Source: Halobaculum sp. XH14
GTDB taxonomy: Archaea; Halobacteriota; Halobacteria; Halobacteriales; Haloferacaceae
Length of the DNA stretch: 64,000 bases
Direction of reading: 5' to 3'
Assembly (NCBI RefSeq): GCF_032116555.1
Contig: NZ_CP134950.1
Coordinates: forward strand, 62,001-126,000
Shown: one piece after another, positions 17,998 through 24,965 of the stretch
How the letters are laid out: every line of letters begins with the position of its first letter
Position numbering within the stretch: the first letter of the stretch is position 1
Program-made: the position numbers and the translations under genes
Notes under the pieces: model-generated
Database searches by the model: none
What the model saw: the letters and a program-made list of their open reading frames with translations, nothing else
Told to the model about the DNA's origin: nothing

Positions 17998-18627
17998 ATG
18001 CCGGTAGAACTTAGCTGGGAAGGGCTCCACGACCGGATCGCACGCCACGGCCTGTATTGGATGAACAGCGGCCATCCATCCCTGGACCGGGACGCCGTCC
18101 GGGAAGCCTGGGCCGACACGAGCACCATCACCATCTCCGACTGGGGAATCAAGGAGAACACTGGCCGCACACTCACTGAACCAGAGTTCCGCAACGACGA
18201 CGGAACCCTCAACCGCGACGCCGTCCGCAACATCCTGATCGAGAGCAGCTTCACCGACGACGAGGGGAACCCAGAGACGCGTCGCGCCGGACAGGTGGCC
18301 GGCGTCCTACTCCGGTTCTGTAACGACATGACGGAAGGAACGCCGGTCCTCGTCAACCTTCCCGAAGATACGTTCGGTGCCTGCGTTGTCACTGGCGACT
18401 GGGAGCTCGACGAAGACCACCCCGTGAGGGAAGAAGATGAACACCACATCTACGCCCGCCGCGTCAGCTGGCTACGCCACGACCGCAGCATCGCTCAGTT
18501 CGACCGAGACATCCTGCCGGAAAGCCTTCACAACATCCCCGACCTGACGAACGCCCAGATACGGGGGGACCGCCTCGACGACCTCGTCGACATCGCGCAG
18601 GTCACGGACTTCCTTGCGGCGGACTGA
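17998..18627 (+). CDS. PUA/EVE-like protein, possible modified-DNA sensor
   Basis: The protein has 209 residues. The central part (AGQVAGVLLRFCNDMTEGTPVLVNLPEDTFGACVVTGDWELDE, about 98-140) followed by HHIYARRVSWLRHD has the layout of PUA/EVE-like or MrcB-N-like domains, in which a short path of strands ends in an aromatic YxRxVxW. Such domains read modified bases or nucleotides and are often attached to type IV restriction enzymes. Here it stands alone, near an Mrr-like gene. The domain call is by eye and moderately weak. Confidence 0.45.
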   Translation: MPVELSWEGLHDRIARHGLYWMNSGHPSLDRDAVREAWADTSTITISDWGIKENTGRTLTEPEFRNDDGTLNRDAVRNILIESSFTDDEGNPETRRAGQVAGVLLRFCNDMTEGTPVLVNLPEDTFGACVVTGDWELDEDHPVREEDEHHIYARRVSWLRHDRSIAQFDRDILPESLHNIPDLTNAQIRGDRLDDLVDIAQVTDFLAAD

Positions 18628-18663: not shown

Positions 18664-19104
18664 TTACCCAAGCACGCCGCGACCGTCATGCCTGTAGGCC
18701 GCCATCTCCTCGAAGTTGCCCTCGTTGACGTTGAATTTGTTCGGTGACCCGGCAGTCGCGTACTGGTCTAGGGCGTCGTCCGGCAGCGCGTACCAGGTAA
18801 TCCGGGTGGCCGCTGCGGCGAGGTCGTCCTCGTGGGTCTCGACAAAGGTCTCGAAGGCGTCCTTCGTCTCGAGGACGAACAGGTGAATGAGTTGTCGGTC
18901 ATCCGCCGAGACGAGGTCATTTCGTGTCTGCTTCAACACGCCCGCAAAACCCTCGCCGGCGTGGTGGTACCAAACCCGGCAATCGTCACCGACAGCGTAG
19001 GTGTTCGCACGCGAACGGACATCGTCGTAATCGACAGGTTGGTCGGTGATGGCATCGACGAACTGTTCGTGCCGATCCGGTCCTACAATCTGGTCCAATC
19101 CCAT
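18664..19104 (-). CDS. Hypothetical protein in defence-like cluster
   Basis: The 146-residue acidic protein contains CRVWYHHAGEGFAGVLKQTRNDLVS and LIHLFVLETKDAFETFVETHE, a mixed alpha/beta pattern. I recognise no family. It is convergent with the PUA/EVE-like gene and lies downstream of a region with four GCTAGT repeats that probably holds its promoter. Confidence 0.5.
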   Translation of the reverse strand: MGLDQIVGPDRHEQFVDAITDQPVDYDDVRSRANTYAVGDDCRVWYHHAGEGFAGVLKQTRNDLVSADDRQLIHLFVLETKDAFETFVETHEDDLAAAATRITWYALPDDALDQYATAGSPNKFNVNEGNFEEMAAYRHDGRGVLG

Positions 19105-19320: not shown

Positions 19321-20475
19321 TTAGACGCCGCGCGGCGGAGTCCACCCATCATCATTGTAGAACGGGGACCCGTTGTTCCACCGGGCTTTCGTCCAAATCC
19401 GGTTCACCGGCTCCCGAAGCAGTTCTGGCGCAGAATTGTCGAAGCTGGATACCTCGACGGCTGGCGGCGCGTAGCTGTCCGTTCCGAATCCACCGCCGCC
19501 CATCGGGCTGTTCCCTTTGGAACTCTGCAGCTGGACATCCTTCACGTCCTGGACCGTCACGTAGAGATAGACCGGTGGGCTGACCTCCAGCGTCTTTAGA
19601 CAGCGGAGCGCACCTTTGAGGGTACGGGCGAGATCAACCTCCATGTGCTCGCCGGAGAGCACGACCTCGCCGGTCCGTGAATCCTGCATAAAGGGGGAGG
19701 TCCCTGCTGCTTCGAACCGGCCATGCTCGTCGAGCCGCGTGTAGCCCGGCTGCTCTTGGGAGGTGTCCCCCATGTATGAGAGCCTGTCACTTACAGAGTA
19801 GACGGCATCACCAATCTGAACCTGATCTACCCCTTTGTCCTTACCGTATATTGGTGGCAGCGGCAACTCTGAAGGGGTGTCAACGTAGCGGACTGTATCG
19901 TGGCCGTTCGGGAGCAAGTGCAGGGTGAGAACCGGTCCATCGGCGAGCGGGATGTCGAGCTGGTCGCGAGTGGCGATATTCTGGATGCAGTCCTCGTGAT
20001 AGTCGTCGATCTGCTGCTTCCCGTCGAGATAAGAGGCCCGTGGATCAACACCGAGATGGGAGGCTGCGAGTTCTGGTTCACTGCCCATGAGGAAGTTTCG
20101 GACGGTTTCGCGGTGCCAGATCTTGAGTTCCCAACCATATTCCTCGCGGTGGTCGTCAACTAAGTCATCAACAACCGCTCCACCGATTTTTTGATTGGTC
20201 ATAAAGACGAAGACATCGTAGTCCCGGTCGTGGGCTGCAGCCTTGTCTGCGTCTTTTTTTAGCTTGGACTTAGTGCGCGACTTCTTCCGCGTGGTGTAAT
20301 GAGCAATCCCGTCACGCCCACCGCGCGAAATTAAGGCATCTTTGCCGCCGTCTCCTCCGCTCCCCGTCGCTGTGGGCTTCACATCGTGGCCATCGGCTCG
20401 AAGAATGTCAGAGCAGAGTTGCTCCCAGTCATCAGCGTCAATATCGCGAATAGCATTTTCAACCTGCTCTTTCAT
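19321..20475 (-). CDS. Mrr-like restriction-endonuclease-fold protein
   Basis: The protein has 384 residues. Residues 12-75 follow the Mrr pattern: DDWEQLCSDILRADGHDVKPTATGSGGDGGKDA, then HYTTRKK. The Asp in GGKDA is in place, but the usual (E/Q)xK pair is replaced by TxK, so catalysis is uncertain. A later FVFMTNQKIGG segment fits the end of the fold. The C-terminal 250 residues are unassigned and include a Gly-rich patch (MGGGGFG). The fold occurs in type IV restriction and other defence proteins. The gene is divergent from the kinase-like gene at 20663. Confidence 0.55.
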   Translation of the reverse strand: MKEQVENAIRDIDADDWEQLCSDILRADGHDVKPTATGSGGDGGKDALISRGGRDGIAHYTTRKKSRTKSKLKKDADKAAAHDRDYDVFVFMTNQKIGGAVVDDLVDDHREEYGWELKIWHRETVRNFLMGSEPELAASHLGVDPRASYLDGKQQIDDYHEDCIQNIATRDQLDIPLADGPVLTLHLLPNGHDTVRYVDTPSELPLPPIYGKDKGVDQVQIGDAVYSVSDRLSYMGDTSQEQPGYTRLDEHGRFEAAGTSPFMQDSRTGEVVLSGEHMEVDLARTLKGALRCLKTLEVSPPVYLYVTVQDVKDVQLQSSKGNSPMGGGGFGTDSYAPPAVEVSSFDNSAPELLREPVNRIWTKARWNNGSPFYNDDGWTPPRGV

Positions 20476-20662: not shown

Positions 20663-21098
20663 ATGTCCGACCGGGCGTTACTGCTGGTGAAGCCGGACGC
20701 CGTGGAGCGCGATCTTACCGGGGAGGTTCTGCACAGAGTGGAAGAGGCCGGCCTCTCCATCGAGCAGCTGCGGACGACGACCCCGAGCCGAGCACTGGTC
20801 GAGAAGCACTACGAGGAGCATCAGGAGGAGGATTTCTACCAGTCGCTCGTGGGATACATCGCGGAAAGCCGGGTACACGCCGCCATCGTGTCCGGCGAGA
20901 ACTCCGCGTCACGGCTACGTAGTGTGGCTGGGGAGACAGAGCCAGCCCGCGGACGAGGGCACGATCCGCGGCGACCTGGGTGACGATTCCTACGAAGCCA
21001 CCGACCAGGAAGACCGAGCGTTACGCAACCTGGTACATGCGTCGGAGCCAGGCGACGCCGAGGAAGAACTCCAGCTGTGGTTCCCGGAACAGGTCTAA
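20663..21098 (+). pseudogene. ndk: Nucleoside diphosphate kinase with a frameshift
   Basis: From the ATG at 20663 the frame reads MSDRALLLVKPDAVERDLTGEV and continues like NDK to GETEPA near 20949. It then leaves the family. Removing one C in the run at about 20949-20951 restores DEGTIRGDLGDDSYEATDQ, the His-containing LVHASEP active-site region and a natural stop at 21096-21098. The C-terminal half is therefore present in the +1 frame. NDK makes NTPs from NDPs. The cause may be a true mutation, a sequencing error or, less likely, recoding. Host cells normally carry a chromosomal copy elsewhere. Confidence 0.7.
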
Positions 21099-22897
21099 AG
21101 CGGCCAGCCAACGGTCGAAGCTTCAATCAGGAGCCGGATAACGAGAACACCGCCCCCGGCGACTACACACCCAACCATGTACCGGTGGTCGAAATAGTCT
21201 TTTCTGGAGTGATACCGCTGGATGCCGATTAATCCGATTAGAGACGCTACGCCTACTGCAGCCTGCATACTGACAACCGCGTAGCCAACGAGGGACCAGA
21301 TGGCTAAACCGGCCCACGTAACCATCAGTAATCGGAATATCAAATCCAACCTGTCCTGCGCCCATCGCTCTTTCTTCTTGGCCATGCAGATGTAGGAATT
21401 CTTCCGTCCTTCTAACTCCTCGAAATCGAATATTTGCTCGCTAAACCGGCGGATTTCGGCTTCGTACATCTCATAGTCCTTTTCGACTTCCTGCCGCAGT
21501 TCGGACAGATCCTTGATGCGGTCCTGAATTAACGGGAAATAGAATCCGATCAGTACGGCGACGATGAACAGGCTGAACGGTGGGACGTAGGTCACGTTGT
21601 TCCAGCGGAGTACGAGAAAGAGATTCGCGATGATCGTCCCGATGAGGGTGAACAACAACGTTTGGATCTGTCGAGAGAGCTGTGTGGCTGCATCGGAGAC
21701 GCGGCTGGTCAGCCCGGTCATGAAGGAATGAATCTGCTGGACTGCGTCGCTCAAATCGTCGAAGTTCTCCTCGATCGCATCGACCTGGAGGTCCTCGTAA
21801 TAGTCTCGCACCGCCTCAACGTGGTCCGGCAAGTCAAGCAGATCGTCGCAGGTGTTGGCTATCGCGAGCCGCCAGAAGTCCCGGAACGCTGCTTTATCCT
21901 CGTGTTCTGCGTATATATCATATGCAGAAACGAGCCTATCGATCTCGGCTGATTCGTACTCACGACTTACTTCGTGCGGGTTCACCTGTTTCGCAAAGGT
22001 TGTCGGCTCGGAGGTGATGGTGAATTCTATCAGCCCGTTCAAGGATTCGACGGCCGAGGAAAACACTCCGAAGATACTGTATACCAGTACAGGGCGGAAC
22101 CCGGGGATTACGCCCCGGATCGGGATGACCGCGGCAGGAGGAACGGGGGACAGGTCGTCGTGCCAAACGGTTCCCGCCCGAGCACGCTGCATAGCTTCCT
22201 GATACCGGTCACGGCTATCAGCAAGTTCCTCGCCCTCCAGTTCGTCTATCTCCGCTAACGTGGTGACCACAGATGCGTCAAGAACGGTGGGTCCACTGCT
22301 TTCAAAGACGAATACTGGCAGTTTTTCGAACGCGAAGAATGCATCTACCACCTCGTTGATCGGCTGGTTCTCTACCCATCGACCCAGTGCTGACGGGTCT
22401 GGCCAGAGAAACACGTCGATCTCGTCCTGGAGGACGTTCGGAAAGGTCGAAACCAGCTCTGCTTCGATGGCTGGTTTATCGACGATGCCGGTGAGCGTGA
22501 CGCTGTGGCCATCATCGGTGTGCAGGTCATTGACCAGTGTATGGACGAATCCTGCTGCTTGCTCGATATCGGAGTCGCGGTATCTGTTGAATCCCTCTTC
22601 CGCTCGGTCATGGTCGGTGGATAGATCCAAGTCTGCGAGTTCTTCGAACCCATCACTGTGGGTTACGACGCCGGTCCCGCTTTTCCCGAAGAGCCGGATC
22701 GTTGGGCTGTCACATCGAAGTTCGAAGTCCCGGAACCAATCGGGGTGGCTGTGGACGGCTTCGATCACCCCGAAGAGACCATCCCTGGTTAGGTCCGCTG
22801 CCGTGGCAGTAAACCAGATGTCGCCGAGAGAAGTTTCTACCTCACCCTCGGACTCCAGAGAGCGGACCTGCCGCAGAACTCCAGCGACTTCAGACAT
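21095..22897 (-). CDS. Large membrane protein, second gene of an uncharacterised two-gene cassette
   Basis: The protein has 600 residues. The N-terminal 400 residues are soluble and alpha/beta (e.g. SVTLTGIVDKPAIEAELVSTF; LPVFVFESSGPTVLDASVVTTLAEIDEL). A helical pair of membrane segments lies at about 415-432 and 440-460. A charged coiled-coil segment (about 465-515) follows, then three further hydrophobic segments to the end. It starts 6 bp after the upstream gene at 22904, so they form an operon. A soluble sensor-like part plus membrane helices joined to a second protein resembles many anti-phage systems. The family is not recognised. Confidence 0.6.
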   Translation of the reverse strand: MSEVAGVLRQVRSLESEGEVETSLGDIWFTATAADLTRDGLFGVIEAVHSHPDWFRDFELRCDSPTIRLFGKSGTGVVTHSDGFEELADLDLSTDHDRAEEGFNRYRDSDIEQAAGFVHTLVNDLHTDDGHSVTLTGIVDKPAIEAELVSTFPNVLQDEIDVFLWPDPSALGRWVENQPINEVVDAFFAFEKLPVFVFESSGPTVLDASVVTTLAEIDELEGEELADSRDRYQEAMQRARAGTVWHDDLSPVPPAAVIPIRGVIPGFRPVLVYSIFGVFSSAVESLNGLIEFTITSEPTTFAKQVNPHEVSREYESAEIDRLVSAYDIYAEHEDKAAFRDFWRLAIANTCDDLLDLPDHVEAVRDYYEDLQVDAIEENFDDLSDAVQQIHSFMTGLTSRVSDAATQLSRQIQTLLFTLIGTIIANLFLVLRWNNVTYVPPFSLFIVAVLIGFYFPLIQDRIKDLSELRQEVEKDYEMYEAEIRRFSEQIFDFEELEGRKNSYICMAKKKERWAQDRLDLIFRLLMVTWAGLAIWSLVGYAVVSMQAAVGVASLIGLIGIQRYHSRKDYFDHRYMVGCVVAGGGVLVIRLLIEASTVGWPL

Positions 22898-22903
22898 ACC
22901 CGG

Positions 22904-23869
22904 TCAGAAGAGGTCGCTGGGACGAGGCAGGTCGTCGATTTCATCGAACAGGCTCCGCTTGTTTCTCCCGGACCCGACGGTCATCTGTGGCTCTGTCCCT
23001 GATAGAACGACGTAGTACGTATTACCTTCCTTCGCCAGCTGAACGTTATCCTGCTGCTGGAATTCGCTCAGCGGTAGCTGGAATGACGTGTTCGCGATCT
23101 CAACAGAGACTGTCGCCTCCTGCCCGATGTCATCATCGAACTCCTCTGACGCATAGTCAACAAAGTCATCTAATGAGTCGAACGCGCCATCCTCTCCATC
23201 CAACCGCTGTCCGATGGAGTCTTCAACGAACTCGTCGGGATGCTTCTGCTCCTCGAGTCGAAGGAATCTCCACCAGTATTTCGCGTAGTGTTGGCTCCCA
23301 TACCGTTGATAGACGTGGGCCCGTGTTATGTCCGATTCATCCTCAAACTCGTCATAGAAGGGATAGATGATGCTCTTGTCCGTCTCTTCCCGGATGATAC
23401 GTTCATGCTCGACGAACACTTCCTCGGTGTCGATCTCATGAGCGTCGGGTAGGAACGGTGTCTTGATTACTGCGACGAACTCCCGATCATATTCCTCGAA
23501 CGGAGCAACAATAATCAGGTCCGAGCGAGATTGAATCTCCGTAATATACCAGTCTGCGATGCGTTCGCTGCAGGTTTCGATATCTCCATCGTTCCTGACC
23601 GCTTCAAGCACGTCGATAACTGACTCACCGTCTTCGGTCCTTTCAACTTCAGCCTCGGCGCTAAACCGGTGGTTACGGGCGCTCTTCGTCTCCCCATATT
23701 TCTTGTCAAGTGCTGTACCAATCAGTTCTTCGCAGATGCGGGAGGCCTCAGCGCCTGCGTCATCGGTAAGATCCTCGCTGTCGAGGACGCCTACCGTCGA
23801 AGGATCGGGGTTATCGTCATCCTCCGTTTTGACGCAGCTATAAACGCCGATACCCGTTACCTCAACCAT
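22904..23869 (-). CDS. NdpA/KwaB-like protein, first gene of the two-gene cassette
   Basis: The 321-residue acidic protein has the segment WYITEIQSRSDLIIVAPFE followed by EFVAVIKTPFL, which resembles the central region of NdpA-type nucleoid-associated proteins and DUF4868/KwaB of the Kiwa system. The resemblance is by eye and weak. The rest, including a YWWRFLRLEEQ helix, is not assigned. A TATA-like TATAATACATA lies about 26 bp upstream of its ATG, predicting a leaderless transcript. It would act in the cytoplasm with the membrane protein encoded next to it. Confidence 0.5.
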   Translation of the reverse strand: MVEVTGIGVYSCVKTEDDDNPDPSTVGVLDSEDLTDDAGAEASRICEELIGTALDKKYGETKSARNHRFSAEAEVERTEDGESVIDVLEAVRNDGDIETCSERIADWYITEIQSRSDLIIVAPFEEYDREFVAVIKTPFLPDAHEIDTEEVFVEHERIIREETDKSIIYPFYDEFEDESDITRAHVYQRYGSQHYAKYWWRFLRLEEQKHPDEFVEDSIGQRLDGEDGAFDSLDDFVDYASEEFDDDIGQEATVSVEIANTSFQLPLSEFQQQDNVQLAKEGNTYYVVLSGTEPQMTVGSGRNKRSLFDEIDDLPRPSDLF

Positions 23870-23885
23870 AGCGCAATTTCTTAGG

Positions 23886-23900
23886 AATATGTATTATACC
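23886..23900 (-). promoter_or_regulatory. TATA-box region for the two-gene cassette
   Basis: On the minus strand GGTATAATACATATT lies about 20-30 bp before the start codon at 23869, the spacing expected for a leaderless archaeal transcript. Confidence 0.5.
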
Positions 23901-23985
23901 TTGTGCGAACGTTCGGGGCACAGCATCGTATATCAATCTTCCCCGCCCCCAGTCAGGCACTTCAGTCCTGCGTAGAGTCTATTAT

Positions 23986-24004
23986 CCCCTCAATGGGTGA
24001 GGGG
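23986..24004 (+). promoter_or_regulatory. Leader hairpin element H2, before tfb
   Basis: CCCCTC (23986-23991) pairs with GAGGGG (23999-24004) around loop AATGGGT. It lies 40 bp before the TFB start codon. The loop matches the dispersed hairpin family although the stem sequence differs. Confidence 0.55.
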
Positions 24005-24044
24005 CTCGCCGTATCGGCGGTTTTCCCAAACAGCGGTGAGAACA

Positions 24045-24965
24045 ATGGCAACCAGAGACATCTACGAGACTGGATTCGACGAAGACGCCCAGACAGACTC
24101 GAATACCAACCAATGTCCCGAGTGCGATGGATACGTCATCACGAACGTCAAGGAAACGGTCTGCGAGGACTGTGGCCTCGTCATCGAAGAGCAACGTCTC
24201 GATCACGGGCCGGAGTGGCGAGCGTACGATGAGGACGAGCGGGAACGGACGGGTGCTCCGCTGACGGCAGCGCGGCACGACCGAGGCCTCTCGACCGAGA
24301 TCGGCCACGGAACCGATGCACACGGGAATGAACTCTCTGGGCAGAAACGCCGGCGGCTGGCCCGGATGCGACGTGAACAGACCCGTGGTCGCTGGCAGTC
24401 CAAAGCGGAACGGAATCTGGCACACGGGTTGGGCGAGGTGCGCCGGCTAGCGAGTGCGCTCGAGCTCTCCGAGTCGCTTCGCGACCAGGCGTGCCAGCTC
24501 TTCCGGAGCGCCCAGAACGAGGATCTGCTTCGTGGCAGATCCATCGAAGCCATCGGCGCAGCGAGCATCTATGGTGCCTGCCGGTGTAACCAACACCCGC
24601 TCCTCCTCGAGGATGTCGTCGACGCCGCCCGAGTCGAGTCCACTCGTGTCACCAACGCCTACCGAATACTGAATCGCGAATTGGAGCTGCCGACACCACC
24701 AATGCGCCCGACGTCGTTCATTCCGCGCCTGATCTCGGAGCTGGAGTTGGACCACGACATTCGCCGACGCGCGAACGAACTCGCAGAACGCGCCGAGGGG
24801 ACAGCTCTCATGAACGGCTGTCAGCCATCAGGCATCGCGGCCGCCTGCGTCTATCTGGCCGCCCAGCAGCAGGGCGCGTGGATCACCCAATCCACCGTTG
24901 CGTCGGCAGCGGAGGTGTCAGTCGTGACGCTTCGTAGCCGGCGGGACGAACTCCAAGCGATCTGA
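24045..24965 (+). CDS. tfb: Transcription initiation factor IIB (TFB)
   Basis: The start is the ATG at 24045 (MATRDIYETG); the upstream extension would run through leader hairpin H2. The 306-residue protein has an N-terminal zinc ribbon (CPEC about residue 24, CEDCG about 43). A B-finger/linker region (GPEWRAYDEDERERTGAP) and two cyclin repeats (about 110-200 and 205-300) follow. TFB recruits RNA polymerase to TBP-bound promoters. Haloarchaea carry several TFBs that direct different gene sets, so a plasmid-borne copy may favour the element's own promoters. Confidence 0.95.
   Translation: MATRDIYETGFDEDAQTDSNTNQCPECDGYVITNVKETVCEDCGLVIEEQRLDHGPEWRAYDEDERERTGAPLTAARHDRGLSTEIGHGTDAHGNELSGQKRRRLARMRREQTRGRWQSKAERNLAHGLGEVRRLASALELSESLRDQACQLFRSAQNEDLLRGRSIEAIGAASIYGACRCNQHPLLLEDVVDAARVESTRVTNAYRILNRELELPTPPMRPTSFIPRLISELELDHDIRRRANELAERAEGTALMNGCQPSGIAAACVYLAAQQQGAWITQSTVASAAEVSVVTLRSRRDELQAI

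Follow-up and report, generated by a model that had tools for sequence, protein, structure and literature searches.

A conserved two-gene unit of haloarchaea pairing a divergent NdpA-like protein with a membrane protein, a candidate antiviral system

The window analyzed here covers 64 kb of a 158,620-base plasmid contig from a haloarchaeal genome of 3.68 Mb. Two adjacent genes on its minus strand, together spanning 21095-23869 by open reading frame calls, are the subject of this report. Gene A (22904-23869, minus strand; 321 aa, ATG start) is the first gene of the pair and encodes a protein with a predicted, divergent NdpA/YejK (NA37) fold. Gene B (21095-22897, minus strand; 600 aa, ATG start) follows after 6 bp and encodes a protein with an alpha/beta N-terminal half (residues ~1-350, predicted to be cytoplasmic), a coiled-coil helix and approximately five transmembrane helices. 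These lengths, the shared strand and the gap reproduce those given by a first-pass annotation, which had proposed the two genes as a candidate anti-phage cassette. Upstream of A, a promoter-like stretch (23870-23905, minus strand) contains the motif TATAATA, read from the sequence at ~25-32 nt before the start codon, which would fit a leaderless haloarchaeal transcript. Neither A nor B obtained a family name from Pfam, NCBIfam or PADLOC, and the pair lies outside the coverage of all three.

An Mrr_cat restriction-endonuclease-like gene (19321-20475, minus strand) scores just above the Pfam Mrr_cat cut-off (21.8 bits against 21), in agreement with the Mrr-like neighbor of the first-pass annotation. 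We treat it as a neighbor of A-B rather than as a demonstrated member of the unit. It is the sole defense-type neighbor of the pair in the window, which weighs against the defense reading favored below. The PUA/EVE-like neighbor named by the same annotation was not recovered: the open reading frames at 18664-19104 (minus strand) and 17998-18627 (plus strand) have Pfam and NCBIfam matches at noise level at most. Abutting the stop codon of B is a frameshifted nucleoside diphosphate kinase copy (20666-21099, plus strand); an intact ndk copy is present on contig C1 of the same genome, and two other loci (L023 and L062) have degraded pieces of ndk close to the pair. A TFIIB-family gene (23997-24965, plus strand) begins next to A and is read in the opposite direction, away from it. 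L014 and L078 have similar TFB genes close to the pair, and this recurrence suggests that the spot may be a recurrent plasmid insertion site.

Relatives of A were found in 30 of 391 sampled Halobacteria and relatives of B in 35 of 391, mostly in the same genomes, so that the cassette of the first-pass annotation emerges as a conserved unit; among the near relatives sampled, the counts were 6/99 for A and 7/99 for B. Wherever both genes are whole, B lies downstream of A in the same orientation, and the two are separated by -11 to +9 bp. The first-pass annotation had held that homologs never adjacent in other genomes would count against its reading; intact copies in other genomes are adjacent. 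The non-paired cases are broken copies or contig ends: B is cut beside a transposase-like gene in L006 and L019, A is split around an inserted gene in L073 and L069, A and B lie apart on one plasmid in L058 and L153, B is fragmented in L152 and frameshifted in L061, and L067 meets a contig end. The divergence of A tracks that of B (Mantel r 0.98 over 28 pairs; 0 of 2000 permutations). Because intact A relatives are followed directly by B, and because the divergence of the two is correlated, the pairing is far beyond chance and A-B is a conserved two-gene unit.

The spread of the unit is patchy, with pairs on plasmids as well as on chromosome-sized contigs, and the flanking genes vary widely from locus to locus. 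Copies from different GTDB families share 95-99% identity in A, which fits horizontal transfer. Limited searches of viral contigs and phage records yielded no relative of the pair. Downstream of B, several relatives carry genes for an 862-aa PD-(D/E)XK protein (Pfam PDDEXK_1) and for a UvrD-type helicase of 953 aa (L016, 11181-16627, plus strand; L153, 9481-14927, plus strand), which possibly form a linked module. Separately, a 244-aa protein in L021 (9044-9778, minus strand) carries a B-like C-terminal membrane half that is almost identical to that of B in L070, together with a different N-terminus, and is probably a recombination remnant.

Two distant matches of B led to a sister subfamily, A'/B' (subfamily 2). 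Intact A'-B' pairs, their genes separated by -11 to +14 bp, occur in 11 loci; a truncated A' match in L173 and the weakest A' match, in L179, stand without B'. Profile comparison with hhalign linked B to B' (98.4%, E 4e-15) and A to A' (97.8%, E 1e-12, with the alignment extending over the full length), and both diverged subfamilies keep one layout. Four A' proteins were tested against the Pfam NA37 cut-off of 24.6 bits, of which those of L150 (40 bits) and L151 (33.1 bits) pass and those of L174 (23.9 bits) and L178 (14.9 bits) fail. BrxC and PglX genes (PADLOC 2035 and 2451 bits, respectively) flank the sister pair of L174.

This distribution bears on the possibility that the pair serves the upkeep or transfer of mobile elements, with A as an NdpA-type regulator and B as its membrane partner, together governing plasmid or ICE transfer, partition or the exclusion of other elements. 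NdpA relatives also regulate mobile elements, as NdpA2 controls transfer of the ICE PAPI-1 (PMC8565334); NdpA genes are common on plasmids, and several of the pairs are plasmid-borne, some of them near replication genes. However, chromosome-sized contigs also carry pairs, one pair lies within a BREX locus, and the genes that flank them differ widely among loci. We consider this explanation unlikely.

The AF2 model of A has a mean pLDDT of 63, with a better N-terminal part and poor quality beyond approximately residue 209. When residues 1-209 of the model were compared with the PDB, E. coli YejK (9be2) was the best match (Z 15.1, rmsd 3.1, 167 aligned residues; next match, 4.9), and Foldseek with the A model agreed on YejK (E 1.1e-4), which assigns this predicted part of A to the NdpA/YejK fold. 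By sequence, A of the window had no Pfam NA37 (PF04245) match at E 1, and one of 20 A relatives matched, at E 0.047. In hhalign, E. coli YejK taken as a single sequence scored an uninformative 0.2% against the A set and 12% (E 0.0024) against A and A' combined, and a sequence search of solved structures with the A and B profiles returned no match. We therefore call A a divergent NdpA-like protein and not a Pfam NA37 member, a designation that draws on the predicted fold and on a profile bridge through NA37-positive A' proteins, the NA37 score of A itself being below the cut-off.

The AF2 model of B (mean pLDDT 82.1) comprises an alpha/beta N-terminal half and about five membrane helices, with a long helix that extends into the membrane region. 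An N-in, C-out topology, which would leave the large N-terminal half cytoplasmic, agrees with the hydropathy and with the charges of the loops. The features described in the first-pass annotation, a large soluble part, a coiled coil and roughly five membrane helices, are thus seen in both the model (pLDDT 82) and the hydropathy profile, and the sensor-pore design it suggested is supported as a sensor-plus-membrane build. No convincing fold match to B was obtained in the PDB or BFVD. The best structural matches (top Z 13) reflect a long-helix resemblance within chance for helical bundles, and a CorA-like PADLOC match (E 0.006) was too weak to be accepted.

Across 21 relatives of B, two membrane-helix residues never vary, Asn425 (first helix) and Pro455 (second helix), and a third, Arg431 of the first helix, hardly does. 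Such conservation might be expected of a gated membrane part, as would be needed if the pair acted in abortive infection or in a toxin-antitoxin-like manner, with B a membrane pore or toxin that A restrains and releases on sensing foreign DNA. At least six copies are also broken by insertions or a frameshift (counting breaks in A and B alone), as costly genes often are. Set against this, plasmid genes are often broken anyway and no pore fold was found for B, and we regard such a mechanism as quite improbable.

A neighborhood survey for defense islands, as proposed in the first-pass annotation, was run in two ways. With PADLOC at E 1e-15, 170 + 341 families were counted near pairs and 116 + 11 in the controls, which were random stretches taken from the same contigs and matched to the loci; these figures are families rather than genes, from sets of unequal size of which one control set was reduced in sequences, and one control half is rich (116) because haloarchaeal plasmids carry much defense. 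In a BLAST count that used nine reference proteins, matches fell in 8 of 34 subfamily-1 loci and in 1 of 38 matched controls (Fisher p 0.011); as the references were drawn from subfamily-2 loci, only this subfamily-1 versus control comparison is fair, and it rests on eight loci. Defense genes are thus modestly more common near pairs than in matched controls. Neighbors of pairs include genes for type I restriction-modification, GmrSD, OLD-like proteins and helicases of the DISARM/BREX kind.

We favor the reading, at a probability of roughly 0.6, that A-B is a two-gene antiviral or anti-mobile-element unit formed by a membrane-anchored, NdpA-family DNA-binding pair. This reading is the best fit to two diverged subfamilies with one layout, the fold of a DNA-binding protein predicted beside a membrane protein, a patchy and apparently mobile spread, and defense-rich surroundings; the recurrence in bacteria of operons that join NA37 and membrane-protein genes also speaks for it. 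An antiviral function in particular is suggested by this context and by analogy with a validated YejK-domain unit of E. coli. In the proposed mechanism, A would bind DNA, as its NdpA/YejK relatives do, and B would contact A and hold it at the membrane. B would sense the entry of viral DNA or a disturbance of the membrane, whereupon A would bind the incoming DNA and block its replication or transcription. If this is true, the pair would represent a second, apparently independent means of capturing viral DNA at the membrane, one that uses the fold of a nucleoid protein. A conserved, unnamed haloarchaeal gene pair would gain a function, and NdpA-family proteins would enter archaeal immunity. A direct comparison would also become possible with Kiwa, which occurs in the same hosts and, in the case of the sister pair, at the same genomic place.

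Among known systems, NdpA/YejK shares its fold with the modeled residues 1-209 of A, and some A' proteins exceed the NA37 cut-off; E. coli yejK differs in standing alone between rplY and yejL, with no comparable membrane partner. Closer in layout are bacterial plasmid records from Acinetobacter, Pseudoalteromonas and Methylobacterium, in which an NA37 gene is followed within a few bases by a gene for a membrane protein. In A. baumannii, the two proteins are 348 and 401 aa with a 2 bp gap in L219, and 361 and 417 aa in L224, where the first gene is NA37-like by eye only; an NA37 gene with a membrane-protein gene is likewise present in Pseudoalteromonas (L223) and Methylobacterium (L220). The partners resemble B in having a soluble N-terminal half and C-terminal membrane helices, but are 399-450 aa in length, and those tested are unlike B in sequence (hhalign 0.3%). 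A DNA-level search for a relative of the Acinetobacter NA37 pair in E. coli was negative. In the DefensePredictor study, a unit with a YejK nucleoid-associated domain protected E. coli from phage (PMC13092281); the YejK domain is its point of likeness to A-B.

Kiwa is also present in haloarchaea, where it is separate from the A-B pair: KwaB (PF16162) was found in 26 of 391 Halobacteria. In most of 20 KwaB loci (L100-L119), a short membrane KwaA lies directly upstream, and in L101, L107, L110, L114 and L118 a typical KwaA was not shown by simple gene calling. KwaB with a short membrane KwaA is thus fairly common in haloarchaea, often beside BREX genes; Kiwa adjoins PglX in L112 and, judging by the sequence likeness of flanking genes, in several other loci. 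A recent survey of BREX mentions neither NdpA nor Kiwa (PMC12839542). Like A-B, Kiwa comprises two genes, for a membrane protein and a DNA-binding-type protein, and the BrxC-PglX place is common to Kiwa in related loci and to one sister pair (L174). The systems differ in gene order and partner size, KwaA, a protein of 3-4 membrane helices, being first with about 190-205 aa (~182-226 aa over all loci where it was recognized) and B being second and 600 aa with a ~350-aa soluble half; the first-pass remark that KwaA, at about 200 residues, is unlike B in size was correct. They also lack sequence similarity in either protein. A had no PF16162 match at E 1, and PF16162 is absent from its own genome. 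With hhalign, A or A' against KwaB gave 0.1-0.3%, A against 16 haloarchaeal KwaB proteins 0.2%, and B or B' against KwaA 0.3-0.4%. The label NdpA/KwaB-like in the first-pass annotation therefore holds for NdpA, by fold (9be2, Z 15.1), and fails for KwaB (no PF16162 match; hhalign 0.2%).

A reading of the pair as a diverged Kiwa, in which A would be a distant form of KwaB and B a larger protein that has taken the place of KwaA, would accord with the common logic of a membrane protein and a DNA-binding protein, with the occurrence of Kiwa and the sister pair at BrxC-PglX, and with the finding that KwaB binds DNA without cutting it (PMC12904381). Given the profile scores above and the differences in gene order and partner size, such descent is very improbable. 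A-B is not Kiwa on sequence grounds, and Kiwa is a fair functional analogy rather than a sequence relation. More broadly, and as a tentative proposal, NA37 nucleoid proteins of both archaea and bacteria might have been joined repeatedly to membrane proteins of unrelated origin, giving rise to a general class of antiviral systems that bind DNA at the membrane. The haloarchaeal pair would then be a branch of this class that has yet to be described, and Kiwa would have arrived at a similar solution in parallel.
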